Below are positions 33,495 through 52,897 of a stretch of 52,954 nucleotides of DNA, piece by piece (within the stretch, counting starts at the first letter, position 1; every line of letters starts with the position of its first letter). Source of the stretch: Salegentibacter salarius (GTDB lineage Bacteria > Bacteroidota > Bacteroidia > Flavobacteriales > Flavobacteriaceae). The stretch is from assembly GCF_900168265.1 (NCBI RefSeq), contig NZ_FVZF01000029.1, positions 1-52,954 on the forward strand, in the 5' to 3' direction. A program made the position numbers and the translations under genes. The notes under the pieces were generated by a model. That model saw only the letters and a program-made list of their open reading frames with translations, had not been told where the DNA came from and did no database searches.

Positions 33495-33623
33495 AAACTG
33501 TCTGAGAAGTAAACTACTTCGGAGCAAGCTCACGAAGCATTATGATTGGAAAATATAATTCCATATCGAAGCACGCCTCGGAGCATTTAATCTCGATTAT
33601 CGAGTCAACTTTTCAGACAGTTT
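33495..33623 (+). terminator. Composite terminator with repeat copy C in its loop
   Basis: The outer stem is a perfect 11-bp pair AAACTGTCTGA (33495-33505) / TCAGACAGTTT (33613-33623) followed by a T run, 26 bases after the M3 peptidase stop codon. The loop of about 107 bases contains dispersed repeat copy C, with CTCGATTATCGAG at 33592-33604. The same outer stem core encloses other modules at 34384-34546 and 39155-39288. Confidence 0.75.
33506..33606. repeat. Dispersed repeat copy C with CTCGATTATCGAG palindrome
   Basis: The segment reads through ACTTCGGAGCAAGCTC, GCATTATGATTGGAAAATAT and CCTCGGAGCATTTAA to the palindrome. It aligns along its whole length with copy A at 4778-4864 and less closely with copy B at 11688-11778. 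It fills the loop of the terminator at 33495-33623. Confidence 0.85.
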
Positions 33624-33642
33624 TTTATGGCTCAAATTTAAA

Positions 33643-34242
33643 TTACTCCACTGCCGAAGCAACCAATTTATTGGGACCAGCCATAAAACCATATAAATGC
33701 ATTTTTTCCTGAGTGATTTTTTCAATAGGTACAGCAGTAATTGGATTACCGTGGCGATGAATTACCAAAAAGAAGGTGTCATCAACTTTCTTCAAGTAAG
33801 ACTCCATTATTTTTCCATCAGCGTGATCCTGAAAGTCGATGATAAAGTTTTTCCCTCCTCGGACTAAATCATATTTTATTTTTCTAATTTCCTCAGTGCT
33901 CAGATTGGTTTCGGTAGGAACCAAACGTATATAATCTACTGGTTTCTCTAACCTCGGGGAAGCAATACTTAGCCTATTGGGATTTTTAAAGCTGAATTCA
34001 GCAAAAGCGAGCGTATCAATTTTCAACTTGTTATCTTCAGTTTCATAGGAAGTTTTAGTCACAAACTGATCAAAATTATAATGGGATAAGGAGTCTTCAC
34101 TTACTTCCATTAAATGTATTCCGGGAAAACCACCAAAACTTTTATTTCCTGAAATAACCCATTTCCCTTCTAATTCCTGCGCGGTAATTGAAGTGCTTAA
34201 TAACAAAGTAAAAAAGACAAAATAGCTATCAATAAATTTCAT
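33643..34242 (-). CDS. Secreted protein of unknown function
   Basis: The 199-residue protein starts with a signal peptide when translated from 34242 (MKFIDSYFVFFTLLLSTSIT). A start at 34266 would put eight extra residues in front, so I prefer the shorter form. The mature part begins with LEGKWVISGNKSFGG and has alternating beta-type segments (HLMEVSEDSLSHYNFDQF, LAFAEFSFKNPNRLSI), similar in outline to lipocalin-like 'W-x-I/V-S-G' proteins. I do not assign a family. It is a single gene that converges with the M3 peptidase. Confidence 0.7.
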   Translation of the reverse strand: MKFIDSYFVFFTLLLSTSITAQELEGKWVISGNKSFGGFPGIHLMEVSEDSLSHYNFDQFVTKTSYETEDNKLKIDTLAFAEFSFKNPNRLSIASPRLEKPVDYIRLVPTETNLSTEEIRKIKYDLVRGGKNFIIDFQDHADGKIMESYLKKVDDTFFLVIHRHGNPITAVPIEKITQEKMHLYGFMAGPNKLVASAVE

Positions 34243-34568
34243 AATTCTACTTTTTAAGTTGAACAATAATTTAAAAAATAGCCGGCTAAAAACCTTATTT
34301 ATTCGATAGCGTTCTTATTATTTAGATGAAAAACGGAATTATAAGTGTTGGTAGGGCAATATACTAAGCTTATACCCTAAAATAAAAAGAGACTATATGA
34401 AAAGTTTTGAAAATCGTCTTCCTGAATTTATTTCAGAGCTTGCTCCGAAATTTATTCGGAGATCTAAGATGTAATCGTTAAAAAACATGTTAGAAGCTGA
34501 ACCAAGTTCAGCTTGACGAGATCAGACCTTTCAGACAGCCTCTTTTATATAAACTTAAAAAGTTCTGC
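34243..34568. other. Gene-free stretch with a REP-containing terminator
   Basis: The half next to the secreted-protein gene (34243-34383) shows no clear promoter box. The other half holds a long composite hairpin downstream of ndk (34384-34546). Confidence 0.5.
34384..34546 (-). terminator. Composite hairpin with REP modules after ndk
   Basis: The ends AAAAAGAGACTATATGAAAAG (34384-34404) and CTTTCAGACAGCCTCTTTT (34528-34546) are diverged inverted copies of the outer stem seen at 33495-33623 and 39155-39288. Inside are two REP-like units, 34415-34468 (with a TGCTCCGAAAT / TTCGGAG sub-hairpin) and 34491-34518 (TAGAAGCTGAA type). The element starts 23 bases after the ndk stop codon and may end its transcript. 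Confidence 0.6.
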
Positions 34569-34988
34569 TTAGAACATCTCTCTACCTGAAAAATGGAAAG
34601 CAGCTTCAATCTGTGCGTTTTCATCGCTATCACTTCCGTGAACAGCATTTTCACCAACAGATTTCGCGTATTTTTTTCTTATAGTTCCTTCAGCAGCATC
34701 TTCTGGATTTGTTGCTCCTATTAAAGCTCTAAAATCTTCTACGGCATTTTCTTTTTCTAACACAGCCGATACGATTGGCCCACGAGTCATAAACTCTACC
34801 AACTCTCCAAAGAAAGGACGTTCGTTGTGTACTGCATAAAATTCTTCAGCATCAGCAGTAGTCATTTGAGTCATTTTCAAAGCTACAATTCTAAATCCTG
34901 AAGTAGTAATTTGTTCTAATATCGCACCTACATTCCCGGCTTCAACTGCATCGGGCTTTATCATGGTGAATGTTCTTTTTCCTGCCAT
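34569..34988 (-). CDS. ndk: Nucleoside diphosphate kinase
   Basis: Ndk balances nucleoside triphosphate pools by moving the terminal phosphate through a histidine. The 139-residue length and the whole family pattern are present: [10 protein letters not shown] at the start, [20 protein letters not shown] in the middle, and [12 protein letters not shown] around the active-site His. There is no extension or missing residue. The gene stands alone and has one of the best promoters in the window at 35011-35040. Confidence 0.98.
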
Positions 34989-35010
34989 TGTATGGTTTTT
35001 AAAATTTTGG

Positions 35011-35040
35011 CAAAAATAATTAAATAAGCTGCATTTACAA
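35011..35040 (-). promoter_or_regulatory. ndk promoter (TTG-N19-TATTTTTG)
   Basis: On the minus strand TTG (rc of 35038-35040), 19 bases and TATTTTTG (rc of 35011-35018) form a complete Bacteroidota housekeeping promoter. The -7 box ends 22 bases before the ndk start codon. Confidence 0.75.
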
Positions 35041-35095
35041 GTTCCTTTTGGTTTTATATGAATTTAGCTTTCAGGGAGCTGCATTATTAAAGCTC

Positions 35096-36136
35096 TTAAT
35101 CCTTATACTTTACCAGGTATTCCTGTTGAAGTTTATTTCCAACACCGCGCATTTGCATCTTTACTTCCCCTGAATTGAAATCGAATTTCAACAAACCATA
35201 ACTTAAATCGCTCACCACCTCGCCTACTCTATATTGATTGGGTTCACCGCTAAAATCTGAATAGGAATGCGTCATCCCGCTGGAAGTAAAATCTACAAGC
35301 GGATAATCCAGTTCTTCAATATTTTTTTCTGAAAATTCTGAAATATGGCGGTCACCACTAAGAAGAATTACATTTTTTGCTTTAGAAGTTTCTAAAAGCT
35401 TTTCCAGTTTCTCTATTTCTGATGGAAAATTATCCCAGGTTTCAAAATCGTGTTCCGCAGATAGTATTTGAATTGAACTTAAGATCACATTATAATCGGC
35501 AGTGCTATTCTTCAATTGGTTTTCCAACCATTCCCATTGGTTTGTTCCCAAGATGGTGCCGTTATAATCTGGTTCATAACGCTTTCCTTTTTCTTTGCTT
35601 TTTTGCAATTCAGACCTAAAATATCTGGTGTCTAAAACTATTACTTTTATGGTCTTCCCGTCCTCACTAAAATTTTTAGCGTGGTAAACGCCTTCTCTTT
35701 CCCGGCGAGGATCGTCTTCAGCAACATCAAAAAAATCGAGAAACAACTGCTGACTTTCCTCTTTATATTCCCAATTTCTCCCGGCATCGTTCTTACCGTA
35801 ATCATGATCGTCCCAGGTGCCTAAAATTGGTGTGGTTTCCATTAATTTTTGATAATCGGGCTGGTTTTTCTGGATTTGGTAATCGGCTTCCAGTTCATCC
35901 ATATCATCGGTATCAGCATAAATATTATCACCTCCCCAAAGAAATAGATCTGGCTTTTCCTGTAAAATAGCATTCCATAATGGCTGGGCTTCATCCTGGC
36001 GGTTACAACTTCCAAAAGCAATTACATAATCGTAATTTTCAGCAGATGTTTCAATTTCATTTTTGATAGTTTCTGCATTACTTCCGCAGGAAATAAAAAG
36101 AAAAAAGCTTATTAAGAGCGATAAAATTACCTTCAT
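35096..36136 (-). CDS. PhoD-like alkaline phosphatase lipoprotein
   Basis: PhoD-type metallophosphatases release phosphate from organic esters outside the cytoplasm. The 346-residue protein starts with a lipoprotein signal when read from 36136 (MKVILSLLISFFLFISCGS). Eight further residues upstream would spoil it. IAFGSCNRQDEAQPLW, LFLWGGDNIYADTDD, GTWDDHDYGKNDAGRNW and LLSGDRHISEF hold the metal-binding Asp, Asn and His residues. The segment DDHDYGKNDAG is diagnostic for PhoD/phospholipase D-like members. A strong promoter precedes it. The gene is divergent from the nrnA-gldI operon. Confidence 0.93.
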   Translation of the reverse strand: MKVILSLLISFFLFISCGSNAETIKNEIETSAENYDYVIAFGSCNRQDEAQPLWNAILQEKPDLFLWGGDNIYADTDDMDELEADYQIQKNQPDYQKLMETTPILGTWDDHDYGKNDAGRNWEYKEESQQLFLDFFDVAEDDPRREREGVYHAKNFSEDGKTIKVIVLDTRYFRSELQKSKEKGKRYEPDYNGTILGTNQWEWLENQLKNSTADYNVILSSIQILSAEHDFETWDNFPSEIEKLEKLLETSKAKNVILLSGDRHISEFSEKNIEELDYPLVDFTSSGMTHSYSDFSGEPNQYRVGEVVSDLSYGLLKFDFNSGEVKMQMRGVGNKLQQEYLVKYKD

Positions 36137-36157
36137 TTTTCGTTGATTTGTTGAGTA

Positions 36158-36186
36158 CAAAAATACAGATTGGTTTTTTAAGCCAA
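36158..36186 (-). promoter_or_regulatory. PhoD-like gene promoter (TTG-N18-TATTTTTG)
   Basis: On the minus strand TTG (rc of 36184-36186) and TATTTTTG (rc of 36158-36165) are 18 bases apart. The -7 box ends 21 bases before the start at 36136. Confidence 0.65.
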
Positions 36187-36211
36187 TATTAATAAATTGT
36201 ATCTTTACTCG

Positions 36212-36346
36212 CTTCCCGCTAAATGGGAATTAAAATAGTCTATGCATTGTTTACAAATGTTATGACTATTTAAAAAAATCTTAGGCTTAACCTAAGTAAA
36301 TGAGATTGGAAATGTTCAGCATTAAGGTAGAACATTTCTATTTTTT
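36212..36346 (+). ncRNA. Candidate small RNA or leader with four hairpins and a terminator
   Basis: Four hairpins follow in series: TTCCC/GGGAA (36213-36229), AAATAGTC/GACTATTT (36233-36271), CTTAGG/CCTAAG (36280-36296) and GAAATGTTC/GAACATTTC (36309-36338). The last is followed by TATTTTTTC, so it looks like an intrinsic terminator. The near -7 box TATCTTTA (36200-36207) would start a transcript at about 36212. The element ends 48 bases before the nrnA-like start codon. It may be a free RNA or an attenuator. I know no family that it matches. Confidence 0.4.
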
Positions 36347-36393
36347 CAACATAATACCTTGTAGGATTGCTTCAGGGTATTTTATTTTACACT

Positions 36394-37407
36394 ATGATAG
36401 AACAAGCAATTTTAGAGATTACCGCCGAACTTTCCCAGGCCAGAAATATAGTAATTGTTCCGCATAAAGGACCCGATGGCGATGCCATAGGATCTTCTTT
36501 AGGACTTATGCACTTTTTAAAGAATAAAGGCCATAATGTAGATGTGATTGCACCAAATGATTATCCGAAATTTTTAAAATGGCTTCCCGGTAACGAAGAA
36601 GTGATGATCTACGAAAAAGATAAATCTAATGCCGATCAACTTATTGAAAATGCAGATATAGTTTTTGCCTTAGATTTTAATCATTTAAACCGCTCGGGCG
36701 ATATGCAGGAAGTATTAACTGCGTCACAGGCTGTTTTTATTATGATAGACCATCACCGTGAACCCTCTGACTTTGCTAATTATACTTATAGCGATGCTGA
36801 AATGAGTTCTACCTGTGAGATGGTTTATCACTTTATAGATAAACTGCGTGCTGTAGAAAAAATCACACCAGAGATCGCGACCTGTCTTTATTCAGGAATT
36901 ATGACCGATACCGGTTCATTTAGATTTAGCGCTACCAGCGCCGAAACACACCGGGTTATCGCACAACTAATAGATAAAGGTGCCGTTAACCATGAAATAC
37001 ACAACAATATTTTTGATACGTTTAATGAAAACCGGTTACAGCTTTTAGGAACAGCTTTACAAAACCTACGCGTATTACCTGAATATAAAACGGCTTACAT
37101 TACTTTATCACAGGAAGAACTGGATAAACATAATTTTCAAAAAGGAGATACAGAAGGTTTTGTGAATTATGGCCTTGCTATAGAAGATGTTATTTTCGCC
37201 CTGATTTTTATTGAAAACAAACAGGAAGGAATCATTAAAATCTCGTTTAGATCAAAAGGTGATTTTAATGTGAATGAATTCGCAAGGGCACATTTTGAAG
37301 GTGGCGGGCATAATAATGCCGCTGGTGGAAAAAGTGAACTTTCTATGGAAGACACCGTTACTAAATTAAACAGCATTCTTCCCGATTATAAACAATTAAA
37401 AGGATGA
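36394..37407 (+). CDS. nrnA: DHH/DHHA1 phosphoesterase (NrnA-like oligoribonuclease/pAp phosphatase)
   Basis: NrnA-type enzymes degrade very short RNAs and dephosphorylate 3'-phosphoadenosine 5'-phosphate. The 337-residue protein has IVIVPHKGPDGDAIGSSLGL, the Asp in FALDFNHLNR and the DHH motif in MIDHHREPSDF. The Asp in SGIMTDTGSFRF completes the manganese site, and the DHHA1 GGGHNNAAGG motif closes the protein. I chose the ATG at 36394. A TTG at 36367 would add nine residues not typical for the family. The stop overlaps gldI by 4 bp, so the two are coupled. Confidence 0.92.
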   Translation: MIEQAILEITAELSQARNIVIVPHKGPDGDAIGSSLGLMHFLKNKGHNVDVIAPNDYPKFLKWLPGNEEVMIYEKDKSNADQLIENADIVFALDFNHLNRSGDMQEVLTASQAVFIMIDHHREPSDFANYTYSDAEMSSTCEMVYHFIDKLRAVEKITPEIATCLYSGIMTDTGSFRFSATSAETHRVIAQLIDKGAVNHEIHNNIFDTFNENRLQLLGTALQNLRVLPEYKTAYITLSQEELDKHNFQKGDTEGFVNYGLAIEDVIFALIFIENKQEGIIKISFRSKGDFNVNEFARAHFEGGGHNNAAGGKSELSMEDTVTKLNSILPDYKQLKG

Positions 37408-37964
37408 AAAAAGCTTTAATCCTTATAGTCATATTAGCATTAGCGGCCTGTAAATCTCCAGAGGCCAGGTATCCTGTTACACAAAAATCGGGCTCGCATA
37501 TTAGTGAATCTATAGTTAAAAACCAGGAACTCCTGGAAAAGGAAATAGCACAAATTAAAGCCATAATCGCCAAAGATTCTACCAGCGAATACCAATCTTC
37601 ACAAGACGGTTTCTGGTATACTTACAACCAAAAAAGTAAAGATACTGCTAACGTGGTTAAACCTGAATTTGGAGATGTTGTAGAGTTCGATTATAGTATA
37701 AAAACTTTAGATGGGCAGGTAATTTATGCCGAAGGCGAAAAAGCAACCAGAACTTATGCAATAGACCAGGAGAAGTTATTTAGCGGTTTAAGACAGGGAC
37801 TTAAACTTATGAAAGAAGGAGAAACGGTCACTTTTTTGTTTCCGTCTTATAAAGCTTATGGTTATTATGGCGATAAAAATAAAATAGGCACTAACTGGCC
37901 TTTAAAAACAAAAGTTACCTTAAATAAGATCATAGAAAAGGAAGAAACTCAAAATCAACAATAA
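37404..37964 (+). CDS. gldI: Gliding motility lipoprotein GldI (FKBP-type PPIase)
   Basis: GldI is an envelope lipoprotein with a peptidyl-prolyl isomerase domain that is needed for gliding in flavobacteria. The 186-residue protein has a lipobox (ALAACKS) and a charged spacer of about 60 residues. An FKBP domain then follows (VVEFDYSIKTLDGQVIYAEG, FSGLRQGLKLMKEGETVTFL, FPSYKAYGYYG). It overlaps the nrnA-like gene by 4 bp, and a second PPIase gene follows 43 bp downstream. gldF and gldG lie 28 kb away in the same window. Confidence 0.9.
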   Translation: MKKALILIVILALAACKSPEARYPVTQKSGSHISESIVKNQELLEKEIAQIKAIIAKDSTSEYQSSQDGFWYTYNQKSKDTANVVKPEFGDVVEFDYSIKTLDGQVIYAEGEKATRTYAIDQEKLFSGLRQGLKLMKEGETVTFLFPSYKAYGYYGDKNKIGTNWPLKTKVTLNKIIEKEETQNQQ

Positions 37965-38007
37965 GTTAAACCCAGGGCCATAATGGGCCTTTTAATTTTT
38001 ATACTAA

Positions 38008-39135
38008 ATGAGAACCAGTAAATTTTTATTACTTTTTGCCGTGGTATTTACCATGTTTGCGTGTAACGACGAATATCCAGATCTAGAAGATGGGATGTAC
38101 GCAGAATTTAAAACCAATTACGGAACTTTTGTAGCCGAACTCTATTATGAAGCTACGCCAATTACCGTATCCAGTTTTGTTTCCCTTGCAGAAGGCACAA
38201 ACAAAATGGTAGACAGTACACACAAAGGGAAAAATTATTACGACGGACTTACTTTTCACAGAATTATAGATGGATTTGTAATTCAGGGTGGTGATCCTAC
38301 CGGAACCGGTAGCGGTGGCCCGGGTTACAAGTTTCCAGACGAAATTGTAGACAGCTTAAGCCACGATTCTAAAGGTATTCTTTCTATGGCCAATGCCGGT
38401 CCCGGGACAAACGGAAGCCAGTTTTTTGTAACCCTTGGTCCAACCCAAAACCTTGATGGCAGACATACCGTTTTTGGTAAAGTTATTAAAGGCCAGGATG
38501 TTGTTGATGCTATTGGGAAAGTAGAAACCGCAGAGCGTGATAAGCCTGTAAAAACGGTTACTATGGAAGAAGTAAACATCGTAAGAAAGGGCAAATCGGC
38601 TAAGAATTTTGAAGCTCCCAAGGTTTTTGAAGAAGAACTGCAGGCTATAAAAGACAAGGAAGAAGCCGAAGCCAAAAAACGCCAGGAAGCAAAAAATGAA
38701 AATGTTGAATATTTTAGCAGCAATAAAGAAAAAGCTGAAACTTTAGACAGTGGCCTAAAGATCTACTTTGAAGAAAAAGGAGATGGTGAAACGCCAAAAA
38801 CAGGTCAGATGGTAGAAGTTTGGTACGAAGGCTATTTTGAAGATGGTGATATTTTTGACACCAATAAAAAAGAGCTTGCAGAAGAAATGGGACTTTTTAA
38901 CCCAACTCGCGAAGCCCAGGGTGGTTATGCCAATCCAATGGTAGTGCCTTACGGTCCTGATGCTCCAATGATCCCAGGTTTTAAGGAAGGTATTCAACAA
39001 ATGAGTGTTGGCGATACCGCTTTACTTTATATCCCAAGTCATTTAGGATATGGTGAGCGTGGTGCCGGTGGCGGTGTTATTCCTCCAAACACAGACCTTG
39101 TATTTAGGGTTGAATTAGCAGGGATTAAAAAGTAA
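38008..39135 (+). CDS. Cyclophilin-FKBP fusion lipoprotein (dual PPIase)
   Basis: The 375-residue protein joins two unrelated isomerase folds. After a lipobox (FTMFACND), residues of about 30-195 form a cyclophilin domain: FHRIIDGFVIQGGDPTGTGS, SMANAGPGTNGSQFFVTLG and LDGRHTVFGKV are all complete. A charged linker (about 205-245, rich in Glu, Lys and Ala) leads to an FKBP domain (about 250-375) with VEVWYEGYFEDGDIFDTN, MIPGFKEGIQQMSVGD and YGERGAGGGVIPPNTDLVF. It should act in the periplasm or outer envelope on folding of secreted proteins. It lies downstream of gldI and may share its transcript. Confidence 0.94.
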   Translation: MRTSKFLLLFAVVFTMFACNDEYPDLEDGMYAEFKTNYGTFVAELYYEATPITVSSFVSLAEGTNKMVDSTHKGKNYYDGLTFHRIIDGFVIQGGDPTGTGSGGPGYKFPDEIVDSLSHDSKGILSMANAGPGTNGSQFFVTLGPTQNLDGRHTVFGKVIKGQDVVDAIGKVETAERDKPVKTVTMEEVNIVRKGKSAKNFEAPKVFEEELQAIKDKEEAEAKKRQEAKNENVEYFSSNKEKAETLDSGLKIYFEEKGDGETPKTGQMVEVWYEGYFEDGDIFDTNKKELAEEMGLFNPTREAQGGYANPMVVPYGPDAPMIPGFKEGIQQMSVGDTALLYIPSHLGYGERGAGGGVIPPNTDLVFRVELAGIKK

Positions 39136-39154
39136 TTTCCCTGAATAAAATAAG

Positions 39155-39288
39155 AAAGGCTGTTTGAAAATATTTCTTTTCGTTAAGCTGTCCCGAAGCT
39201 TCGGGATTATTTCAGCTTCTAAGTTTAATTGAAACTAGATCCTGAAACCAGTTCAGGATGACGAAAGATTATTAATCAAACAGCCTTT
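39155..39288. terminator. Composite bidirectional terminator with REP modules
   Basis: A perfect 13-bp stem AAAGGCTGTTTGA (39155-39167) / TCAAACAGCCTTT (39276-39288) with a T run follows the PPIase gene and faces the pepD gene. The loop of 108 bases contains two REP-like units, 39181-39223 (with CCCGAAGCTTCGGG) and 39236-39263 (TAGATCCTGAA type). It sits between convergent genes, so it may stop both. Confidence 0.8.
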
Positions 39289-39309
39289 TTACTTTTCAAT
39301 ATTTCCGAA

Positions 39310-40770
39310 TTATTTCTTCGGAATATTCTTTAAAACTTCTAATAAGAATTTCCAGTATTTCTGAGCTGAAGAAATGCCAGCTCTTTCATCTGGGGAATGC
39401 GCACCTCTAATTGTTGGCCCAAAAGAGATCATATCCATTTCAGGATAATGATTACCAATTATTCCACATTCCAATCCTGCGTGGCAGGCTGCAACATCAG
39501 CCTTCTCATTATGCAAGTTTTGATATAATCCATCTACAACTTTTAAAATAGCTGAATTAGGGTTTGGCGCCCATCCCGGATATTCTCCGGAAAGTTTCAC
39601 TTTAAACTTCGCCAGTTCAAATGTAGCTTCCAAACTATTAGCCAGATCGTCTTTAGAAGATTCTACCGATGATCTTGTTAGGCAATTAATCTTCACCTTC
39701 CCCTCCCCTACTTTTACGCTGGCGATATTGTTAGAAGCTTCCACTAAACCATCAATATCAGGGCTCATTCTATAAACTCCGTTATGCGCCGCAGAAATTG
39801 CTTTTACTACTTCCTGCTGATCTTCAACCTTCATAACATTATTAGGAACTTCGGTTTCAGAAATTTCAATATCCATATTAGGTTCCAGAGAAGCAAATTC
39901 AGTTTTAATCTCACGAACCTGCTGAATAATTTCAGTTAAAAAAGTTTCGGTATTCGATTTATCTACCACTACAATAGCTTCGCTTTCTCGAGGAATGGCG
40001 TTTCTTAATCCGCCACCATTAAAGCTGGAAACACGCAAGCCAAAATCGCGATTAGCATCAAAAAGTACGCGGGCCATTATTTTATTAGCATTAGCCAGGC
40101 CTTTTATAATATCCATCCCGGAATGACCACCTCGTAACCCTTTAACTTTAATAAGGTATCCTACCGAATTATCTGGAGTATGCTCTTCTTCATAATCTCT
40201 TACCGCGGTAATGTCTACTCCACCGGCACAACCAATACCTATTTCATCGTCTTCCTCAGTATCTAAATTTAAAAGAATATCACCCTGAAGTAAACTAGGA
40301 TCTAAACCTTTGGCACCTGTCATTCCCGTTTCTTCGTCTATAGTAAACAAAGCTTCAAGGGCAGGATGCTCAATCTCTTTACTTTCTAGAATTGCCATCA
40401 TACTGGCAACGCCCAAACCGTTATCGGCTCCAAGTGTTGTTCCTTTAGCTTTTACCCAATCTCCATCTACATACATATTGATCCCGCTGGTTTCAAAATC
40501 AAAGTCGGTATCATTATTTTTTTGGTGCACCATATCTAAATGCGCCTGCAGTACGATTGGCTTTCTATCTTCCATCCCGGCAGTAGCTGGTTTTCTAATC
40601 ACCACGTTCCCGGTTTCATCCACCAGGGTTTCCAGGTTAAGATTATTACCAAATTTTTTCATAAACTCAATTACCCGTTCTTCTTTTTTTGAAGGTCGTG
40701 GCACTTCGTTTAGATCGGCAAATTTATTCCATAAGATTTTCGGCTCTAATTCCCTTATTTCTTCGTTCAT
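39310..40770 (-). CDS. pepD: Aminoacyl-histidine dipeptidase (PepD, M20C family)
   Basis: PepD cleaves dipeptides such as Xaa-His (carnosine-like substrates) with two metal ions. The 486 residues match the family. VLQAHLDMVHQKN brings the first His and Asp, then GADNGLGVASMMAIL, IDEETGMTGAKGL with the Glu pair, NLDTEEDDEIGIGCAGG, and HSGMDIIKGLANANKIMAR from the lid domain. CHAGLECGIIGNHYPEMDMI is the C-terminal signature. It has no signal peptide, so it is cytoplasmic. It is a single gene, divergent from the DUF3810 gene. Confidence 0.96.
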   Translation of the reverse strand: MNEEIRELEPKILWNKFADLNEVPRPSKKEERVIEFMKKFGNNLNLETLVDETGNVVIRKPATAGMEDRKPIVLQAHLDMVHQKNNDTDFDFETSGINMYVDGDWVKAKGTTLGADNGLGVASMMAILESKEIEHPALEALFTIDEETGMTGAKGLDPSLLQGDILLNLDTEEDDEIGIGCAGGVDITAVRDYEEEHTPDNSVGYLIKVKGLRGGHSGMDIIKGLANANKIMARVLFDANRDFGLRVSSFNGGGLRNAIPRESEAIVVVDKSNTETFLTEIIQQVREIKTEFASLEPNMDIEISETEVPNNVMKVEDQQEVVKAISAAHNGVYRMSPDIDGLVEASNNIASVKVGEGKVKINCLTRSSVESSKDDLANSLEATFELAKFKVKLSGEYPGWAPNPNSAILKVVDGLYQNLHNEKADVAACHAGLECGIIGNHYPEMDMISFGPTIRGAHSPDERAGISSAQKYWKFLLEVLKNIPKK

Positions 40771-40792
40771 TGTTTTATATTTTGGTCTTTCA

Positions 40793-40800
40793 CAAAGGTA
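40793..40800 (-). promoter_or_regulatory. -7 box of pepD
   Basis: The minus strand reads TACCTTTG, which fits TAnnTTTG, 22 bases before the start codon at 40770. The -33 position shows TTT in place of TTG. Confidence 0.4.
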
Positions 40801-40915
40801 TTGGTAATTAGCAAAGAAGGAAAATTTACAGGATTTTTAAAACTAATTTAACCAATACAGGATGAGCTGATTAAGATTTTAAGCCGTGTTTTGCTATTAA
40901 TTGTATTTTTAGATC

Positions 40916-41989
40916 GTGAAGAAAAAAGGACTTTATATTCTAGCTTTTCTGCTGCCGGTGCAGATAGTCTTTATCATTTTCCTGGCCGGTTATCCCGAGC
41001 TGGTGGAAACCTGGTACAGCCGACTTTTATATCCGGAAATCTCAAAGTTAATGCGTTACGGGCTCGGTTTTTTGCCATTTTCGCTCGGGGATCTTTTATA
41101 TACTTTCTTCGGAATTTTAATAGTCCTTTGGATAATAAGACGTTTTAAACAGAAGTTTAGAAATCCAAGGTTTTGGATAATAGACGCCATGGCGAGCTTA
41201 TCTATAGTGTATGCCTGTTTTCATATTTTCTGGGGTTTTAATTATTACCGCCTACCCCTTCACGAAGCTCTAGAAATTGAAAAGGATTATACTACCGAAG
41301 AGCTTTATTCTCTTTCTGAAATTTTAATTACTGAATCTAATAAGCTCCATAATCAGCTTACCGAAAATGATTCGGTTAGCGTGGTGATTCCCTATTCTAA
41401 AGATGAAATCTTTAAAAAAACTATCGACGGGTACGCTAATATTAGCAAAGATTATCCTGAATTAACTTATAAAGGAGAATCGCTAAAACGTTCATTATAC
41501 AGCATTCCGCTTTCCTATATGGGTTTTAACGGCTACCTGAACCCGCTTACCGGCGAGGCACAGGTAAATACCCAAATTGTTTCTTATAAAATACCCACCA
41601 CTGCCAGTCACGAAATTGGGCATCAATTAGGATTTGCTAAAGAAAACGAAGCAAATTTTATTGCCTGTCTAAGCACTATGAACCATCCCGATGCTTATTT
41701 TAGATACTCGGGCTACACCTTTGCTTTGCGCTACTGCCTAAGTGAATTATACCGAAGAGATCCCGAAAAGTTTAAAACTTTAAAAGCTAAGATCAACCTG
41801 GGGATATTAGAAAACTACCGCGAAGTAGAAGACTTTTGGCTGGCTCATCAAAATCCATTTGAACCGCTTTTTCAGGCTTTTTACAATCGTTTTCTAATAG
41901 TGAACAATCAGGCCGACGGAATGAAAAGCTACAGTTACGTGGTCGCACTCTTGGTTAATTACTTTTCAGAAGAAAAGAACAGACTTTAA
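40916..41989 (+). CDS. DUF3810 membrane protein with a HExxH motif
   Basis: The 357-residue protein belongs to DUF3810, a Bacteroidota/Firmicutes family without a known reaction. It has three N-terminal helices (about 5-25, 50-75 and 85-110) with FLPFSLGDLLYTFFGILIV. A soluble part contains TTASHEIGHQLGFAKENEAN, which is a HExxH plus downstream Glu pattern like that of zinc peptidases, so it may be a membrane-bound protease. The start codon is GTG. It is divergent from pepD and is followed by a repeat-containing gap. Confidence 0.9.
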   Translation: MKKKGLYILAFLLPVQIVFIIFLAGYPELVETWYSRLLYPEISKLMRYGLGFLPFSLGDLLYTFFGILIVLWIIRRFKQKFRNPRFWIIDAMASLSIVYACFHIFWGFNYYRLPLHEALEIEKDYTTEELYSLSEILITESNKLHNQLTENDSVSVVIPYSKDEIFKKTIDGYANISKDYPELTYKGESLKRSLYSIPLSYMGFNGYLNPLTGEAQVNTQIVSYKIPTTASHEIGHQLGFAKENEANFIACLSTMNHPDAYFRYSGYTFALRYCLSELYRRDPEKFKTLKAKINLGILENYREVEDFWLAHQNPFEPLFQAFYNRFLIVNNQADGMKSYSYVVALLVNYFSEEKNRL

Positions 41990-42314
41990 CCTAATAATTA
42001 TTTAGGATGGAGAAAATAAATTAAATATCCGCAAACAGTGATACTTTAAAATTTGAACGTCACCCTGTCCCGACGCTTTGGGATTTTTCAGAGCCTGCTC
42101 CGATTTCTATCGGAGGTCTAAGTTAAATGTATAGACTGTTCGTGTTAGATGCTGAAACAAGTTCAGCATGACGATTTATTCATAATTTTAATTTAATGAG
42201 TAAACAGACATAAATAAAATCTCACATAGTTTTAAAACCAATTTCAGCTTTGTTATAATTTTCTTAATTTACGGCACTTTAAGTGCTAAACCACATTTAA
42301 TCCAACTACAATTT
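41990..42314. other. Gene-free stretch with REP modules before the amidohydrolase operon
   Basis: REP-like modules occupy 42058-42122 (with TGCTCCGATTT / ATCGGAG) and 42146-42173 (TAGATGCTGAA type). The outer terminator stem seen at other copies is not present. The last 120 bases before the start codon should hold the promoter of the amidohydrolase operon, but I find no full -7 box. Confidence 0.5.
42058..42173. repeat. REP-like modules between the DUF3810 and amidohydrolase genes
   Basis: Two units of the same kinds as in the terminators at 34384-34546 and 39155-39288 lie in opposite orientation, with the first starting CGTCACCCTGTCCCG. This copy is between two genes of the same direction and lacks the outer stem. 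Confidence 0.75.
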
Positions 42315-45300
42315 ATGAAATTAAGACTTTTACTATGTCTGGTATTTCTGGTCAATCTACAAAGTAAGGCGCAGGAATACTTCCCCAAAAATGATGGGGT
42401 AAAAAATCCCCAAACCAACCACACGGTATTTAAAAACGCCAAAATTCACGTAAGTCCGCAGGAAATTATTGAAAGCGGAAGTTTCGTGGTAAAAGATGGT
42501 AAAATTAGCACCATCGGTAAATCGGTTAACGAACCTGCTAATAGTATAGTGATAGATCTGCAAGGAAAAGAAGTATATCCTTCTTTTATTGATCTTTACA
42601 GCAGCTTTGGAATAAAAGAACCTAAGGAAGTTGAAGGAGGAAATGGCCAGCCGCAATATGAGGCTAGCCGGGAAGGGTATTACTGGAACGACCATATTAG
42701 GCCTGAAACTGAAGCTGTAGCAGCTTTTAATTACGATGAAAAAGCCGCCACTTCTCTTCACAAAGCAGGATTTAGCGTGGTAAACACACACGTTCCCGAT
42801 GGTATTATTCGTGGCACCGGAATGCTTGTAGCTTTAAATCCCGACGGAACCGAGGGAGATCGTATTCTTAAAGATCGTTCGGCACAATACCTTTCTTTAG
42901 ACAAAAGCAAATTGTCCAGACAATCTTACCCTACCTCAACAATGGGCGCCATGGCTTTAATTCGCCAAACTTATTTAGATGCAGAATGGTATGGAAAAGG
43001 AAAGTCTGAAAACAAAGATTTAGCCCTGGAAGCACTAAACCGAAATAAAAATCTAACGCAAATATTTGCTACCGATAATCTTTTGGATGCTTTAAGAGCC
43101 GGAAAATTAGGCAACGAATTCAGCGTTGATTATGTGATTTTAGGTGACGGAAAAGAATATCAACGCCTTCAGGAAATTAAAGAAATCGGAAGCACCTTTA
43201 TTGTTCCCCTTAATTTCCCTGATGCTTACGATGTGGAAGATCCTTTTATGGCCGAACACGTGACTTTAGAAGAAATGAAAACCTGGAACCAGGCACCTGC
43301 AAACTTAAAAATGCTTGCAGAAAATAACATTCCGTTTACCATAACTACACACGACCTGGATGTTGAAAAAGATTTTAGAAACAACTTATTAAAAGCGGTT
43401 AAATACGGTTTAAGCAAAGAAGATGCACTTGCCGCTTTAACCACCACTCCGGCAAAAATTTTAGGTGAGGAAAATCGTTTGGGAACTTTAAAGGAAGGCG
43501 CCTGGGCGAATTTCATAATTACTTCAGGAGATTATTTTGATAAAGAAACCAGTGTTTATGAAAACTGGATCCAGGGAAAAAAGGCAGTGATCACTGAAAT
43601 GAAGACTACCGATATTACTGGAACTTACACTCTTAAAGTAGATGGAAAAGATTACGAACTTAAAATAACCGGGAAACCGGAAGCGCCAAAAGCAAGTGTA
43701 AAGTCTGGTGACACAAAATTGGGCGCAAAGCTTAGTTTTTCTAATAACTGGATGAATTTATTACTTTCTTCGGCAGATACTACAAAAACAGGCTTCACCC
43801 GTTTAGTCGCCAAAACCGATGAAAATACTGAGGATATTTCCGGAACAGCTTATTTAAGTGATGGTTCAGAAACATCTTTTAGCGCTGTTAAAAATTCTTC
43901 CGCAGAAATCACCGAAACAACTGAAGAGGAAGAAGAAAACGGTGAGAAAGATGATGATAAAGAGGAAGAAATCCGTGAAATTATGCCGGTAAGTTTTCCG
44001 AATAAAGCTTACGGATTTTCGGAAATGCCTAAAGAGGAAACCATTCTTTTTCAAAATGCTACGGTATGGACCAATGAAGAAGAAGGAATTATAGAAAACA
44101 CCGATGTTTTAGTAAAAGATGGAAAAATTTCCAGGATTGGAGAAAACCTTAAGGCCGGAAATGCCCGGGTAATTGACGCAACCGGAAAACACCTTACTTC
44201 GGGAATTATAGACGAGCATTCCCATATTGCAGCATCTGCCATTAACGAGGCCGGCCACAATTCTACCGCCGAAGTAAGTATGGAAGATGTGGTAGATCCT
44301 ACCGATATGAATATTTACCGAAACCTTGCCGGTGGAGTAACTACCGTGCAGTTATTACACGGTTCGGCGAATCCCATTGGAGGGCGTTCTGCGATTTTGA
44401 GGTTAAAATGGGGGGAAAATGCTGAAGACTTAATTTTTGAAAATTCCCCTAAATTTATAAAATTCGCATTAGGTGAAAATGTAAAGCAATCTAACTGGGG
44501 AAGCCGCTCCAGGTTTCCACAAACCCGTATGGGTGTAGAGCAGGTTTTTACCGATTATTTCACCAGGGCAAGAGAATATGAAGAGGCCAGAAAAAACGAT
44601 AAGGATTTTAGAAAAGACCTTGAAATGGAAACGCTCGTTGAAATTCTTAACAGCGAACGCTTTGTTTCAGCGCATTCTTATATTCAGAGCGAGATTAATA
44701 TGTTGATGAAAGTTGCGGAAAGTTTTGATTTCAGAATTAATACTTTTACGCATATTTTAGAAGGTTATAAAGTAGCCGATAAAATGAAAGAACACGGTGC
44801 CGGCGGTTCTACTTTTTCTGACTGGTGGGCTTATAAGTATGAAGTGAATGATGCCATTCCATTTAACGCGCCAATTATGCATAGCCAGGGAATTGTAACG
44901 GCAATTAATAGTGACGATGCAGAAATGAGCAGAAGATTAAACCAGGAGGCAGCAAAATCTGTAAAATACGGAGGAGTTTCTGAAGAAGATGCCTGGAAAT
45001 TTGTAACATTGAACCCGGCAAAATTATTGCATATAGATGATAGAGTTGGAAGCATAAAAACAGGAAAAGACGCCGATCTTGTGCTATGGTCAGATAATCC
45101 ATTATCTATTTACGCTAAAGCAGAAAAAACGCTGATTCAGGGAAAAGTTTTCTTTGATATTGAAAAAGACAAAAAACTACGGGAAGAGATTCAGCAACAA
45201 AGAAGTGCACTTATCACGCAAATGCTGCAAGCCAAAAATAAAGGTTTGAGAACGCAGCCGGTGACTAAGAAAGAAGAACAAAATATCCATTGTAACCTAT

Positions 45301-47582: not shown

Positions 47583-48818
47583 TTGAATCCCCAAACCTTA
47601 TTTTATATCATCATAGCCATTATTATTATCGACTTTATCGTCGATAAAATTTTGGATACTTTAAACGCGAAACATTTTGATGACCCCGTTCCGCAGGAAC
47701 TCAATGATGTTTACGATAAGGAGGAATACGAGAAGTCACAACGCTATAAGAAAGAGCGTTTTCGCTTTGGAATCTTTACTTCCACATTTTCCGTCTTGCT
47801 CACTTTAGGTTTTATCATTTTCGACGGATTCGCCTGGGTAAATGATATTGCCAGAAATTTTACCGATAACGCAATCCTGGTAGCTCTAATTTTCTTCGGA
47901 ATAATTATGATTGGTAGCGATATCCTTACCACACCATTTTCCTGGTATAGCACTTTTGTGATCGAAGAAAAATATGGCTTTAATAAAACTACCAAAAAAA
48001 CATTCTTCCTGGATAAAATAAAAGGCTGGTTAATGATGGCTGTTCTTGGCGGTGGAATCCTGGCTCTTATCGTTTGGTTTTATCAATTTGCCGGCAACGA
48101 TTTCTGGTGGTATGCCTGGATCCTCGTAGCCGTTTTTTCTGTATTTCTCAATATGTTCTACGCCAAACTTATTGTGCCATTATTCAATAAACAAAGCCCG
48201 TTGGAAGAAGGTTCACTAAGAACTAAAATTGAAACTTACGCCAAAAGTGTAGGCTTTACGCTAGATAATATTTTTATTATAGATGGCTCTAAAAGAAGTA
48301 CCAAAGCCAATGCTTATTTTTCAGGATTTGGAAAAGAAAAGCGTATCACACTTTTTGATACTTTGGTAAAAGATCTGGAAGAAGAGGAAATTGTTGCAGT
48401 ACTGGCACACGAAGTTGGTCATTATAAAAAGAATCATATCATCGTAAATTTGGCCGCTTCCATTTTAACCACAGGTTTCACCTTGTGGCTTCTTTCGTTA
48501 TTTGTAGGCAGCCCTGTCCTATCGCAAGCCCTGGGAGTAGAAGAACCCAGTTTTCATATTGGTTTAATTGCTTTCGGGATACTTTACAGTCCTATTTCAG
48601 AAATTACAGGGTTATTAATGAATTATTTATCTCGAAAATTTGAATACCAGGCAGATAACTATGCGAAGAAAACTTATGGTGCAGCCCCTTTAATTTCAAG
48701 TTTAAAGAAACTTACCAAAAACAGTCTAAGCAATCTTACGCCGCATAAAGCTTATGTTTTTATGCATTTTTCTCATCCTACGCTTCTGCAAAGGTTCAGG
48801 AACTTAAAGCGCAGTTAG
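47583..48818 (+). CDS. M48 family metalloprotease (Ste24/CAAX protease-like)
   Basis: The 411-residue membrane protease has helices at the N-terminus, near residues 65-130 and 150-190, and around the active site. LAHEVGHYKKNHI carries the HExxH zinc site, and FEYQADNYAKKTYG gives the third ligand Glu, so the site is complete. The closest layout is Ste24-type CAAX prenyl protease. Bacterial members probably degrade or process membrane proteins. The start codon is TTG: an in-frame stop at 47574-47576 leaves no earlier start. It continues the run of same-strand genes from the methyltransferase to purA. Confidence 0.94.
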   Translation: MNPQTLFYIIIAIIIIDFIVDKILDTLNAKHFDDPVPQELNDVYDKEEYEKSQRYKKERFRFGIFTSTFSVLLTLGFIIFDGFAWVNDIARNFTDNAILVALIFFGIIMIGSDILTTPFSWYSTFVIEEKYGFNKTTKKTFFLDKIKGWLMMAVLGGGILALIVWFYQFAGNDFWWYAWILVAVFSVFLNMFYAKLIVPLFNKQSPLEEGSLRTKIETYAKSVGFTLDNIFIIDGSKRSTKANAYFSGFGKEKRITLFDTLVKDLEEEEIVAVLAHEVGHYKKNHIIVNLAASILTTGFTLWLLSLFVGSPVLSQALGVEEPSFHIGLIAFGILYSPISEITGLLMNYLSRKFEYQADNYAKKTYGAAPLISSLKKLTKNSLSNLTPHKAYVFMHFSHPTLLQRFRNLKRS

Positions 48819-48821
48819 TAG

Positions 48822-48852
48822 TTGTTTCTTTATAATCTTAATTGTACTTTTA
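48822..48852 (+). promoter_or_regulatory. Promoter of the relA/spoT gene
   Basis: TTG (48822-48824), 20 bases and TACTTTTA (48845-48852) fit the promoter type except for the last base of the -7 box. The predicted start lies at about the ATG (48857), so a leaderless transcript is possible. Confidence 0.45.
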
Positions 48853-48856
48853 ATTT

Positions 48857-51067
48857 ATGACAGAAGCTGCTATAGAGAAAGAAAATAAGCAAATTGCAAG
48901 GCAGTATAAAGAACTGCTGCGCATAAGTTACCGAAGCTTAAGTGACGAAGATAAAAAGCAAATTAGAAAAGCTTTTGATACTGCTGTAGAGGCACATAAA
49001 GACCAGCGCAGAAAATCTGGTGAAGCCTATATTTTTCACCCAATTGCGGTGGCAAAAATCGTGGCTTCAGAAATTGGTTTGGATGCCACTTCTATTGTTG
49101 CTGCGCTCTTGCACGATGTGGTTGAAGATACGATCTATACGCTTGAGGATATCGAAAAGATGTTCGGAAAGACCGTGGCGACCATCGTTGACGGACTTAC
49201 AAAAATCTCCAGCTTAAAAAAAGATAAGGATGTTTCGCTGCAAGCAGAGAACTTCCGTAAAATGCTGCTCACTTTAAATGATGATATTCGAGTAATTATC
49301 ATCAAAATTGCCGATAGGTTGCACAATATGCAAACTATGGATGCGATGCGCCGTGATAAGCAAGAAAAGATCGCTTCAGAAACACTTTATATTTATGCTC
49401 CGCTGGCTCACAGGATAGGGCTTTATAATATTAAAACCGAACTTGAAGATCTTGGTCTAAAATATACCGAACCCGAAGTATATCACGAAATTCACACCAA
49501 AATAAAGGAAAGCAAGGAAGAGCAGGATGCTTATATTAAGGAATTCTCGCGGATAATTGAAGATTCACTAAACCAGGAAGATCTTAAATACGATATAAAG
49601 GGAAGACCAAAATCTATCTATTCCATAAATCGTAAAATGAAAGCTCAAAACGTGAGTTTCGATGAGGTTTACGATAAATTTGCTATTCGAATTATTTATA
49701 AAAGTGACCCGGCGAACGAAAAATTCCTCGCCTGGAAAATATATTCCATAGTTACCGACCATTTTAGACCCAACCCTACCCGACTTCGGGATTGGATCTC
49801 TTCGCCTAAATCTACAGGCTATGAAGCCTTGCATATTACCGTAATGGGGCCAAAAGGCCGATGGGTAGAAGTACAAATTAGGAGTCAGCGAATGAATGAA
49901 ATCGCTGAAAAAGGTTATGCAGCACACTATAAATATAAACAAGGCGATGCCCAGGAAGAACGTGGCATTGAAGAATGGTTGAACAGGCTTCAGGAAGCTT
50001 TGGAAAACCCCGATGTAAACGCGGTAGATTTCGTAGAGCAGTTCAAGCTCAACCTCTATTCAAAAGAGATCTTTATTTTTACACCGCAGGGTGATCTAAA
50101 ATCTTTACCCAAAGGCTCTACGCCTTTAGATTTTGCATTTAGCATTCATACCGAAATTGGTTTAAAAACCCGTGGAGCCCGCGTTAATAATAAATTGGTT
50201 CCTTTAAGTCACGAATTAAAAAGCGGAGACCAGGTTGAAATAATTACTTCTGAAAATGCACAGCCAAATGTAAACTGGCTTGATTATGCAACCACTGCGA
50301 GAGCTCGCGCCAAAATAAAATCTTCTTTAAAAGACGAAAAACGCGAAATAGCAGAAGAAGGAAAAGCAATTCTTACCCGAAAATTACGGGCTCAGAAAAT
50401 ACCTTTTAATGAAAAGGTAATTAATGAGTTGGTGGTTCACTTTAACCTTAAAACCAGCCTGGATCTATTTTACCGCGTTGGCATTGGTAAAATAGATAAT
50501 CAGAAACTCAAAGAATTTGCTTCTTCCAGGAGTAATGCGCTGGTAAGTTACATTAAGCGAAAGATCACCAAGCCTGTTATTGCTGAAGATCTTAATAAAG
50601 ATGAGATCACTTCTAAATACGACCAGCTTGTCTTTGGAAGAGATGAAGATGAAACCTTAGAATATAAACTGGCCAATTGTTGTAATCCAATTCCGGGTGA
50701 CCAGGTTTTTGGTTTTGTAACGGTAAATGATGGAATTAAAGTTCATAAGAAAAACTGCCCAAATGCGCTTCAGCTTCAAAGTAATTATGCGTACAGAATT
50801 ATTCCGGCTAAATGGATAGATTCTTCCCAACAAGATTTTAAAGCAGTAGTAAAATTAACCGGAATTGATAATTTAGGACTTGTAAGCGAAGTTACTAAAG
50901 AGATCTCCAGCAACCTGAACGTGAACATGCAAAAGGTGAGTTTTGAAAGTGTAGACGGGGTTTTTAGCGGGCAAATAACGCTTAAGGTAAAGAACAATGC
51001 CATACTCACAAAAATCATTAATCGCCTCAAAAAAATTAACGGCATCGATAAGGTTAGCCGTGAATAA
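48857..51067 (+). CDS. Bifunctional (p)ppGpp synthetase/hydrolase RelA/SpoT
   Basis: This Rel-type enzyme makes and degrades ppGpp, the alarm signal of starvation. The 736-residue protein contains an HD hydrolase domain with [12 protein letters not shown] at about residue 80, so hydrolysis is likely intact. The synthetase domain has [28 protein letters not shown] and [20 protein letters not shown]. It also has a TGS domain ([24 protein letters not shown]), a zinc-finger-like region ([12 protein letters not shown]) and a C-terminal ACT domain. The Fur-family gene follows by 29 bp and purA after that, so the three may form an operon that links ppGpp to purine supply. Confidence 0.97.
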
Positions 51068-51096
51068 TCCTATACCTTTGTAAGCTACAAAGAACT

Positions 51097-51552
51097 ATGA
51101 GCAAAAAAGTTGTAAATAAGAACGATCAGGCAGTAGTTAAGAACGTTTTCACCAAGTATTTGGAAGAAAAAGGGCATAGAAAAACCCCCGAACGTTTTGC
51201 GATACTTCAGGAAATCTATAATAACGACGATCATTTTGATATTGAATCACTTTATATCAAAATGAAAAACAAAAAATACCGGGTAAGTCGTGCAACCCTC
51301 TATAATACCATCGATCTATTACTGGAATGCGGACTTGTAAGAAAGCACCAGTTTGGGCAAAACCAGGCACAGTACGAGAAATCGTATTTTGACCGGCAGC
51401 ACGATCACGTTATTTTAACTGATACCGGTGAGGTTATAGAATTCTGTGATCCACGTATTCAGTCTATTAAAAAAACAATCGAAGAAGTGTTTGACATAGA
51501 AATTACCAAACATTCTTTATATTTTTACGGTAATAAAAAAACAACCAATTAA
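51097..51552 (+). CDS. Fur-family metal or peroxide regulator
   Basis: The 151-residue protein has the winged-helix domain of Fur ([21 protein letters not shown], then [20 protein letters not shown]) and the dimer part with [18 protein letters not shown]. The His and Asp residues of the regulatory metal site are present. The CxxC that binds structural zinc in many Fur proteins is not seen; the segment there reads [13 protein letters not shown]. So it may be a Fur or PerR variant without that zinc site. It lies between relA/spoT and purA with small gaps on both sides, so it is probably co-transcribed with them. Confidence 0.9.
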
Positions 51553-51564
51553 CTTAAGATTTCA

Positions 51565-52836
51565 ATGGCGGTAGATTTACTACTCGGTCTCCAATGGGGT
51601 GACGAAGGCAAAGGAAAAATTGTTGATGTACTCACCTCTAAATACGATATTATTGCTAGATTTCAGGGAGGACCAAACGCAGGGCACACCCTCGAATTCG
51701 ACGGGCAAAAACACGTACTCCACACTATTCCTTCCGGAATTTTTCACGATGAAACTATAAACCTTGTAGGTAATGGCGTGGTGATAGATCCCGTGATCTT
51801 TAAAAAGGAACTGGACAACCTTAGCAAGAACAATGTAGATTATAAATCTAAATTGCTTATTTCACGAAAAGCTCATTTAATCCTGCCAACACACAGGTTA
51901 TTAGATGCGGCTTCTGAGGCTTCAAAAGGAAAAGCAAAAATTGGTTCTACTCTTAAAGGTATTGGCCCCACTTATATGGACAAAACCGGGAGAAACGGAA
52001 TTCGTGTAGGTGACCTGGAATTGGAAAACTGGAAAGAGAAATACAGAACCCTTGCCGATAAGCACGAGAAAATGATCAAATTCTACGATGTAGATGTACA
52101 ATATGATCTTGCTGAATTGGAAAAGGAATTTTTTAATGCAGTAAAAACACTTAAATCACTAACCTTTATAGATAGTGAAGCTTATTTGCACAAAGCGCAA
52201 AAAGAAGGAAAAACCATTTTAGCTGAAGGTGCGCAGGGCTCTTTACTTGATATAGATTTTGGAACTTACCCCTTTGTAACTTCTTCTACCACTACAGCTG
52301 CCGGAGCCTGCACAGGCCTTGGCGTTGCACCAAACAAAATTGGCGAAGCTTATGGGATTTTTAAAGCTTACACTACTAGAGTTGGAAGCGGTCCCTTCCC
52401 TACCGAACTTTTTGATGAAGATGGAGAAACTATGGGCCGTGTTGGCAATGAATTTGGTGCTACTACCGGACGTGCACGTAGATGTGGCTGGTTAGATTTA
52501 GTAGCCTTAAAATATGCCGTACAGGTAAACGGAATTACCCAGTTAATTATGATGAAAGGTGACGTACTTAGCGGATTTAAAACCCTAAAAGTATGTACAG
52601 CCTATAATTATAAGGGAAAGGAAATTCAGCATTTGCCATATAATATCGAAGCAGAAAATGTAACACCCGTTTATACCGAAATTAAAGGTTGGGCTGCCGA
52701 TCTTACCGGAATGACGAAAGTAGACCAACTTCCTAAAGAGTTTAATGACTATGTAGAGTTTTTGGAGAAAGAACTGGAAATCCCGATTAAGGTGGTTTCA
52801 GTAGGTCCCGATAGAACTCAAACAATAGAGCGTTAA
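51565..52836 (+). CDS. purA: Adenylosuccinate synthetase
   Basis: PurA joins IMP and aspartate with GTP in the first step from IMP to AMP. The 423-residue protein matches the family. LLGLQWGDEGKGKIVDVL near the start holds the P-loop and catalytic Asp, followed by FQGGPNAGHTLEFDG with the catalytic His. GSTLKGIGPTYMDK, LAEGAQGSLLDIDFGTYPFV and EFGATTGRARRCGW complete the site. The gene follows the Fur-family regulator by 12 bp and ends in a compact terminator. ppGpp is a known inhibitor of PurA, so its place downstream of relA/spoT is suggestive. Confidence 0.98.
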   Translation: MAVDLLLGLQWGDEGKGKIVDVLTSKYDIIARFQGGPNAGHTLEFDGQKHVLHTIPSGIFHDETINLVGNGVVIDPVIFKKELDNLSKNNVDYKSKLLISRKAHLILPTHRLLDAASEASKGKAKIGSTLKGIGPTYMDKTGRNGIRVGDLELENWKEKYRTLADKHEKMIKFYDVDVQYDLAELEKEFFNAVKTLKSLTFIDSEAYLHKAQKEGKTILAEGAQGSLLDIDFGTYPFVTSSTTTAAGACTGLGVAPNKIGEAYGIFKAYTTRVGSGPFPTELFDEDGETMGRVGNEFGATTGRARRCGWLDLVALKYAVQVNGITQLIMMKGDVLSGFKTLKVCTAYNYKGKEIQHLPYNIEAENVTPVYTEIKGWAADLTGMTKVDQLPKEFNDYVEFLEKELEIPIKVVSVGPDRTQTIER

Positions 52837-52864
52837 GAAGTTTCAATCTTTATAAAATCAGAAG

Positions 52865-52897
52865 AGGCCGTCTAAAAAGTATTTAGATGGCCTTTTT
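52865..52897 (+). terminator. Compact terminator after purA with the shared stem
   Basis: A 12-bp stem AGGCCGTCTAAA (52865-52876) / TTTAGATGGCCT (52882-52893, one G-U pair) with a loop of only five bases is followed by a T run. The stem resembles the outer stems at 33495, 34384 and 39155, but no REP modules are inserted in the loop. Confidence 0.8.

Follow-up and report, generated by a model that had tools for sequence, protein, structure and literature searches.

The DNA analysed here, hereafter the window, is a 52,954-nucleotide stretch of Salegentibacter salarius (contig NZ_FVZF01000029.1) in which long hairpins lie behind an M3 peptidase gene, ndk and a gene for a fused cyclophilin-FKBP peptidyl-prolyl isomerase (PPIase), and a short hairpin lies behind purA. 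Domain matches to Peptidase_M3, NDK, the cyclophilin-FKBP fusion and PurA bear out these gene names. Two of the long hairpins, those of ndk and the PPIase gene, appear to be copies of a dispersed, terminator-like composite of about 125 bp that encloses a pair of units resembling repetitive extragenic palindromes (REPs) and whose interior occurs in either orientation at orthologous sites. The window sits in a 3.33-Mb genome (G000), which was compared with 14 further genomes of the same genus. Relatedness was judged by ndk, by which G012 is nearest (100% identity to G000) and G010 is more distant (96%). The nearest named ndk loci, for example that of Christiangramia at 85% identity, come mostly from genera that we take to belong to the Flavobacteriaceae. 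Rfam had no family anywhere in the window when gathering scores were applied, nor did positions 33000-43000 yield one at E values up to 1.

The three long hairpins are present and each folds far better than shuffled sequence. The M3 hairpin (33495-33623, plus strand) lies 3' of the peptidase gene and has arms at 33495-33510 and 33608-33623 that form 16 base pairs, G-U pairs counted, around a 97-base loop, followed by a T run (-44.7 kcal/mol, z -5.4). Its stem belongs to the family described below, and its loop holds a dispersed repeat of about 94 bp, repeat C (33512-33605, plus strand, profile positions 1-94), which is missing here in G012. The hairpin after the cyclophilin-FKBP gene (39155-39288, plus strand) has 13 pairs, formed by AAAGGCTGTTTGA and TCAAACAGCCTTT, and a loop of 108 bases (z -8.6) that contains a REP pair, and its interior is inverted in G010. 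The hairpin after ndk (34384-34546, minus strand) has an imperfect outer stem, with GAGGCTGTCTGAAAGG opposite CTTTTCATATAGTCTC, and nevertheless adopts the proposed structure (-60.1 kcal/mol, z -7.4). It encloses two REP-like units, one of them lengthened by an inner hairpin, and the fillings between the same arms in G010 and G012 are simpler. Within the REP loops of some copies a hairpin of sequence GTCCCGAAGCTTCGGGA forms a third level of nesting; it is seen at 39190-39206 and is missing from the G012 orthologue of that site.

A profile of the REP-like units was run on 41 stretches of G000, amounting to 837 kb with the window, and returned 124 units in 70 clusters. Forty clusters were simple inverted pairs and were retained; the other 30 were not and were excluded. 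In 20 of the 40 pairs the flanking outer arms pair with an energy of -17 kcal/mol or lower, and about 17 of these 20 stems belong, by eye, to one family, GRCTGTYTGA or a variant. These copies are composites with outer arms GAGGCTGTYTGAAAAG, A/T-rich spacers and the two inverted REP-like units. Fifteen non-orthologous copies aligned over 148 columns with 81% mean column identity, spacers included, and their consensus reads TAAAAGAGGCTGTTTGAAAAG, a spacer, CGTCAAGCTGAACTTGTTTCAGCTTCTAACATG, a centre, the inverted unit ending in GGATGACG, an ATTT-rich spacer and CTTTTCAAACAGCCTCTTTT. The remaining five of the 20 stemmed copies (L145:16499, L163:12895, L174:8336, L181:12810 and L183:13519) were excluded by hand for core length or stem, a choice that favours pairing in the alignment. 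The flanks are conserved in register with the units. When 17 stemmed copies were oriented by REP polarity their flanks held 44.9 bits of information, against a maximum of 43.7 in 500 sets of random flips and 18.7 with shuffled letters; 11 weak-stem copies held 29.4 bits, within the range of random flips (maximum 31.3). Since flank information peaks under the orientation set by REP polarity, stem, spacer and units have probably travelled together. Judged by the conservation of arms, spacers and units between unrelated sites, the composite probably spread as one unit.

The arms are also the link to a resident transposon. The preliminary description had proposed a genome-wide search for the outer stem, and with at most two mismatches GGCTGTCTGAAAAG was indeed over-represented, occurring at 91 places (51 + 40) against 16 (9 + 7) for a reversed control. 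Among the 30 best places, 16 were ends of insertion sequences (ISs) of the IS1182 family, 12 were ends of eight composites and two were others. The composite arms GAGGCTGTYTGAAAAG match the terminal inverted repeat (TIR) of the resident IS1182, GAGGCTGTCTGAAAAG, as the terminal repeats of a miniature inverted-repeat transposable element (MITE) match those of an autonomous IS.

The purA hairpin had been grouped with the three long hairpins as a fourth member of one kind. The three are real, with the reservation already made for the ndk stem, whereas the purA hairpin, from its sequence, is not a member of the composite family and is the end of an IS1182-family element (52863-52954, plus strand), its TIR forming the short hairpin and the contig stopping inside the element. 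From 52863 to the contig end, 92 of 92 bases are identical in three of the five other stretches compared (L197, L198 and L199); of the remaining two, L201 gave a count out of register and L133 had no seed match. L133 carries a diverged relative of this end, and it was from this copy that the transposase was read: the end leads into an IS1182-family fragment (NF033551, 234 bits over 249 residues), whose score is below the 270 required for the whole protein, probably owing to truncation of the gene by the contig. In G005 and G011, IS1182 copies whose frame is full-length (L286 and L287) have a TIR at both ends that folds, by eye, into a short terminator-like hairpin. Downstream of purA, G012 and G010 have an unrelated short terminator. 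The purA hairpin had no match in plasmid records, and its pattern with the 5-base loop was found at zero places in the genome; a looser pattern was found at three, of which the one that was read (L001) precedes an open frame that we take to be a transposase gene.

Conservation of the whole unit bears on an alternative in which REP modules insert into the loops of pre-existing terminators, stem and filling being independent. At two orthologous sites, empty and filled loops with the same stem were found. In G012 the M3 site reads AAACTGTCTGAGAAGT followed directly by CAACTTTTCAGACAGTTT; the loop that repeat C fills in G000 is empty there. At L182:8348 it is again G012 that has a mere short loop within the family stem, and G000 and G010 have REP-pair fillings in opposite orientations. 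A few filled stems, such as AAAGGCCTGGAAAG...CTTTCCAGGCCTTTT at L183:13519, lie outside the family, as independent insertion would predict. Both empty loops, on the other hand, carry the family stem, and G010, the more distant genome by ndk, is filled at L182:8348; for these reasons loss of the interior there seems at least as likely as insertion. Short-loop terminators are diverse, whereas strong filled stems are mostly of one family, and the spacers and polarity are co-conserved with the units. The suggestion that the REP element prefers terminator loops is not favoured either, because the family that accounts for most strong filled stems matched only 6 of 141 short-loop terminator calls; these calls count the strands apart, and the matches among the 60 calls listed include one at an IS end and one hairpin that enters once for each strand. 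We consider insertion of REP modules into existing loops distinctly unlikely. The proposal that stem and inner modules are separate building blocks survives for repeat C and for loop turnover, and gives way in the main family to a stem, spacer and REP pair conserved together with their polarity.

Turnover seems to affect composites as a whole, and also to involve loss of loops and fresh insertions. By eye, the other 12 genus members have an unrelated short terminator at the ndk site, as do 10 other readable members at the M3 site. Whole composites also stand where relatives have an unrelated short hairpin at L147:1120 and L174:17523 (both G012 and G010) and at L182:9169 (G010). Repeat C, with 36 matches in the G000 sample, is a separate dispersed block that, by eye, is usually preceded by AGTA and ends in ATTATCGAGT before AAA. 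Its presence differs between G000 and G012 at three sites, being confined to G000 at M3 and to G012 at L174:8336 and L181:897. Profile matches mark two further copies in the window, at 4772-4864 and 11687-11775, both on the plus strand. Repeat C was also considered as the end of a resident IS200-like element, and this was rejected: its profile matched 3 of 12 IS200-like loci, and at both loci read closely (L185 and L194) it lies beyond the IS end.

For the comparison of interior orientation 45 sites were taken, and orthologues of 38 could be placed in G012 and of 37 in G010. Against G012, 21 sites had REP pairs of like orientation, 4 had them inverted and 3 were ambiguous; at the other 10 a REP was missing from one genome or from both, a class that includes the M3 site, where neither genome has a REP. 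Against G010 the corresponding counts were 16, 13, 1 and 7. The inverted share of callable sites is thus 4/25 for G012 and 13/29 for G010, with the outer stem kept; G012 and G010 compared with each other gave 9 same, 8 inverted and 4 ambiguous. A recount that left out the flanks was similar (G012: 19 same, 5 inverted, 4 ambiguous; G010: 15, 13 and 2). Among the 18 inverted cases of this recount the spacers favour the inverted reading by at least 3 points in 11, most clearly at L165:6429, L151, L183:13519 and the window 39155 site, which puts the breakpoints of these 11 at the outer arms. Where both genomes have the stem, 6 sites were inverted and 2 the same in G010, compared with 1 and 8 where the stem is missing (Fisher p 0.015). 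Pooled over the two genomes, stem against none gave p 0.06 and stem-or-one against none 0.014; these values are uncorrected for several groupings, and the "one stem" class includes some misparsed copies. Short-loop terminators, taken as a control for flipping, gave too few cases, since of 14 comparisons 8 had no matching stem, 4 were the same, 1 was inverted (a 3-base loop) and 1 was a tie. Downstream of ndk, the 7-base terminator loop of L006 (G014) is the reverse complement of that of L007 (G005), CGAATAA against TTATTCG, on an unchanged stem.

Inversion between matched arms is what template switching may be expected to leave. In two earlier papers such switching is described as homogenising the arms of inverted repeats and inverting the spacer (PMC8604942) and as leaving inverted loops in RNA genes (PMC8794818); work cited in the former is said there to have argued that it is common at short inverted repeats in proteobacterial non-coding DNA. 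Site-specific inversion by an IS200-like enzyme, or by one resembling a REP-associated tyrosine transposase (RAYT), acting on the REP units would turn the interiors as well. G000 has a single RAYT-like gene (51 bits, cut-off 80; L196 1728-2294, G000 C15:153227-153793), which is syntenic in G012; such genes occur also in G013 and G009, with weaker relatives in G005, G003 and G011, and G010 has one IS200-type Y1_Tnp gene. The RAYT-like protein had no match, however, in G010, the genome with the most inversions relative to G000, or in G004, G002 and G014, and several of these relatives are REP-rich. In 11 of the 18 inverted cases, moreover, the spacers beyond the REP units turn with them, with breakpoints at the outer arms, and we regard enzymatic inversion as very unlikely.

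The outer stem covaries. Across the aligned copies 93.8% of outer-stem cells are paired, compared with 86.7% in shuffles, and 8 of 14 base pairs have changed on both sides, compared with 2.9; neither value was equalled in 500 shuffles. On another measure, the number of additional pair types, 29 of 500 shuffles attained the observed value. Among the 40 pairs, which were not picked on their stem, cognate arms gave -17.5 kcal/mol, non-cognate arms -13.6 and shuffled arms -9.5, and in 22 copies picked on duplex energy 306 of 352 cells were paired, against 269 with the arms permuted. Selection on the stem and mutational homogenisation of the arms are indistinguishable from these sequences.

Position and T runs suggest a terminator. 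Of the 19 stemmed copies that could be placed (of 20), 13 lie between tandem and 6 between convergent genes and none between divergent genes, whereas intergenic gaps overall number 182, 52 and 81 (81 of 315 divergent). The GC-containing stem is followed, as in an intrinsic terminator, by a T run. Under a loose rule, 17 of the 20 stemmed copies have this run after the plus-side arm, and each of the 20 has it on one side or both. Polarity of the REP pair relative to transcription was 7 to 3, too few to read. Stem, T run and position together suggest that the composite terminates transcription. Alternatively, the composite might be a repeat of a transposon-like or chromosome-structure type to which 3' regions are no more than tolerable, and which has no part in termination. 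This would fit the finding that REP pairs without a strong stem avoid divergent regions too (1 of 19 placed), and PMC8604942 indicates that template switching can match arms in the absence of selection. Such a repeat accounts poorly for the T runs, and also for the replacement of relatives' plain short hairpins by the composite at several sites, and we think it unlikely.

A covariance model of the composite gave 71 to 81 matches in 10 of the 15 genomes of the genus, 0 to 7 in the other five and 0 to 9 in 25 genomes outside it. At most 81 candidates were scored per genome and stemless REP pairs match as well, so that these counts are neither complete nor confined to composites.

The explanation that we favour, and hold to be probable on balance, is that the composite is a terminator-like repeat that spread as one unit and whose arms undergo template switching. 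The ndk and PPIase hairpins would be copies of a repeat whose ends are terminal repeats of the IS1182 type and which holds A/T-rich spacers and an inverted REP-like pair, and the matching TIR suggests past mobilisation by an IS1182 transposase. Transcribed either way, the composite would form a long rod whose outer 14-16 pairs and T run could act as an intrinsic terminator, and such action may have led to the retention of copies behind genes. During replication the palindromic arms would permit switching of template from one to the other, which would keep the arms matched, turn the interior and sometimes lose it, leaving an empty short-loop terminator; empty loops might arise by slippage, and no special enzyme would be required. 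Other mobile repeats, such as repeat C, could later land in the loop.

Several observations weigh against this explanation. Half of the REP pairs (20 of 40) lack the strong outer stem. Matches to the composite model number 81 in G012, 81 in G010 and 78 in G014, and in these three genomes the N-terminus of the IS1182 transposase had no match, a search that an IS with another N-terminus would escape; the composite and IS1182 did not co-occur consistently across genomes. No clean composite insertion with an empty target and a target duplication was seen by eye among the 38 and 37 located orthologues. Mutation rather than selection could account for the arm covariation. The spacers leave 6 of the 18 inverted cases undecided and are unturned in 1 (L153, a weak stem). 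Sites with and without a stem behave alike in G012 (inverted 2/11 and 1/9), so that the effect of the stem comes from G010. Lastly, when every copy compared was ranked, the inverted orthologue came out as best match in only 5 of 13 cases in G010 and 1 of 4 in G012 (same-orientation orthologues: 7 of 16 and 12 of 21); some flips could thus be replacement by another copy, and descent is supported for part of them.

A more far-reaching version of the favoured explanation, which we put forward tentatively and with more doubt than belief, is a self-spreading terminator: an IS1182-derived miniature element that gives genes bidirectional terminators across the clade, with template switching between the arms maintaining the stem and turning the interior of about 100 bp until its orientation between species nears randomness. 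If this is correct, dozens of orthologous long hairpins would be available for counting, against divergence, how often loops flip or are lost and arms are homogenised. It would suggest that a transposon end can be co-opted wholesale as a terminator, and would serve as a warning that covarying stems behind genes need not imply selection on the RNA.

REP modules had also been described as standing alone at two places in the window, and the units there do lack the family outer stem. At 12811-12985, 3' of a gene with a SAICAR synthetase domain, the profile finds three units (12873-12985), arranged alike in G012. At 42058-42173 a pair lacks the GGCTGTYTGA stem, with one unit found by profile (42143-42173) and its partner by eye, and is missing here in G012 and G010. 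The surrounding region (42020-42200) and L181:4468 represent a second kind of REP composite with a common left flank, ATATCCGNAAACAGTNATACTTT, which at L181:4468 is able to pair with GGATATA on the right; this may be another miniature element.

The composite is real and rather unusual. We read it as a terminator-like miniature element whose interior, a REP pair, can be inverted, and as a variant of the terminator-like MITE or REP-doublet kind. The closest described kinds are SPRITEs, REP doublets and IS-derived MITEs, and it shows some, not all, of the features of the last two. Like SPRITEs, as presented in PMC3049150, it is short, non-coding and dispersed, has a terminator-like stem and is enriched near the 3' ends of genes; repeats inserted into one another are described there as well. 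The same paper defines SPRITEs by an 18-bp duplex, a long T-rich tract and AAAA/TTTT ends, a combination that the composite consensus lacks; its arms instead match an IS1182 TIR, and its loop is a REP pair found in either orientation between species. Like REP doublets, BIMEs and REPINs, the composite has short palindromic units that form intergenic inverted pairs at high copy number (240 pattern matches in G000, 233 in G012 and 251 in G010), whereas its units lack the GT(A/G)G head of described REPs. PMC2817692 states that RAYTs are always flanked by two REPs, and no REP was found beside the RAYT-like gene in the 4-kb stretches read. Correia-type MITEs, as described in PMC3049150, are likewise below 200 bp with terminal inverted repeats, and the composite arms are those of a resident IS; unlike MITEs, the composite has no IS partner found in some of the genomes rich in it. 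No paper on REP pairs in terminator stems or on flipping bacterial terminators was recognised among the titles in the literature listings. The closest mechanistic parallel is found in the loop inversions attributed to template switching in rRNA and microRNA genes and in yeast genes, in which, according to PMC8794818 and PMC8604942, the loop is turned and the stem kept, and in those reported for chloroplast spacers; in the composite, by contrast, a segment of about 100 bp is turned, and this segment is a dispersed repeat in its own right, situated behind bacterial genes.

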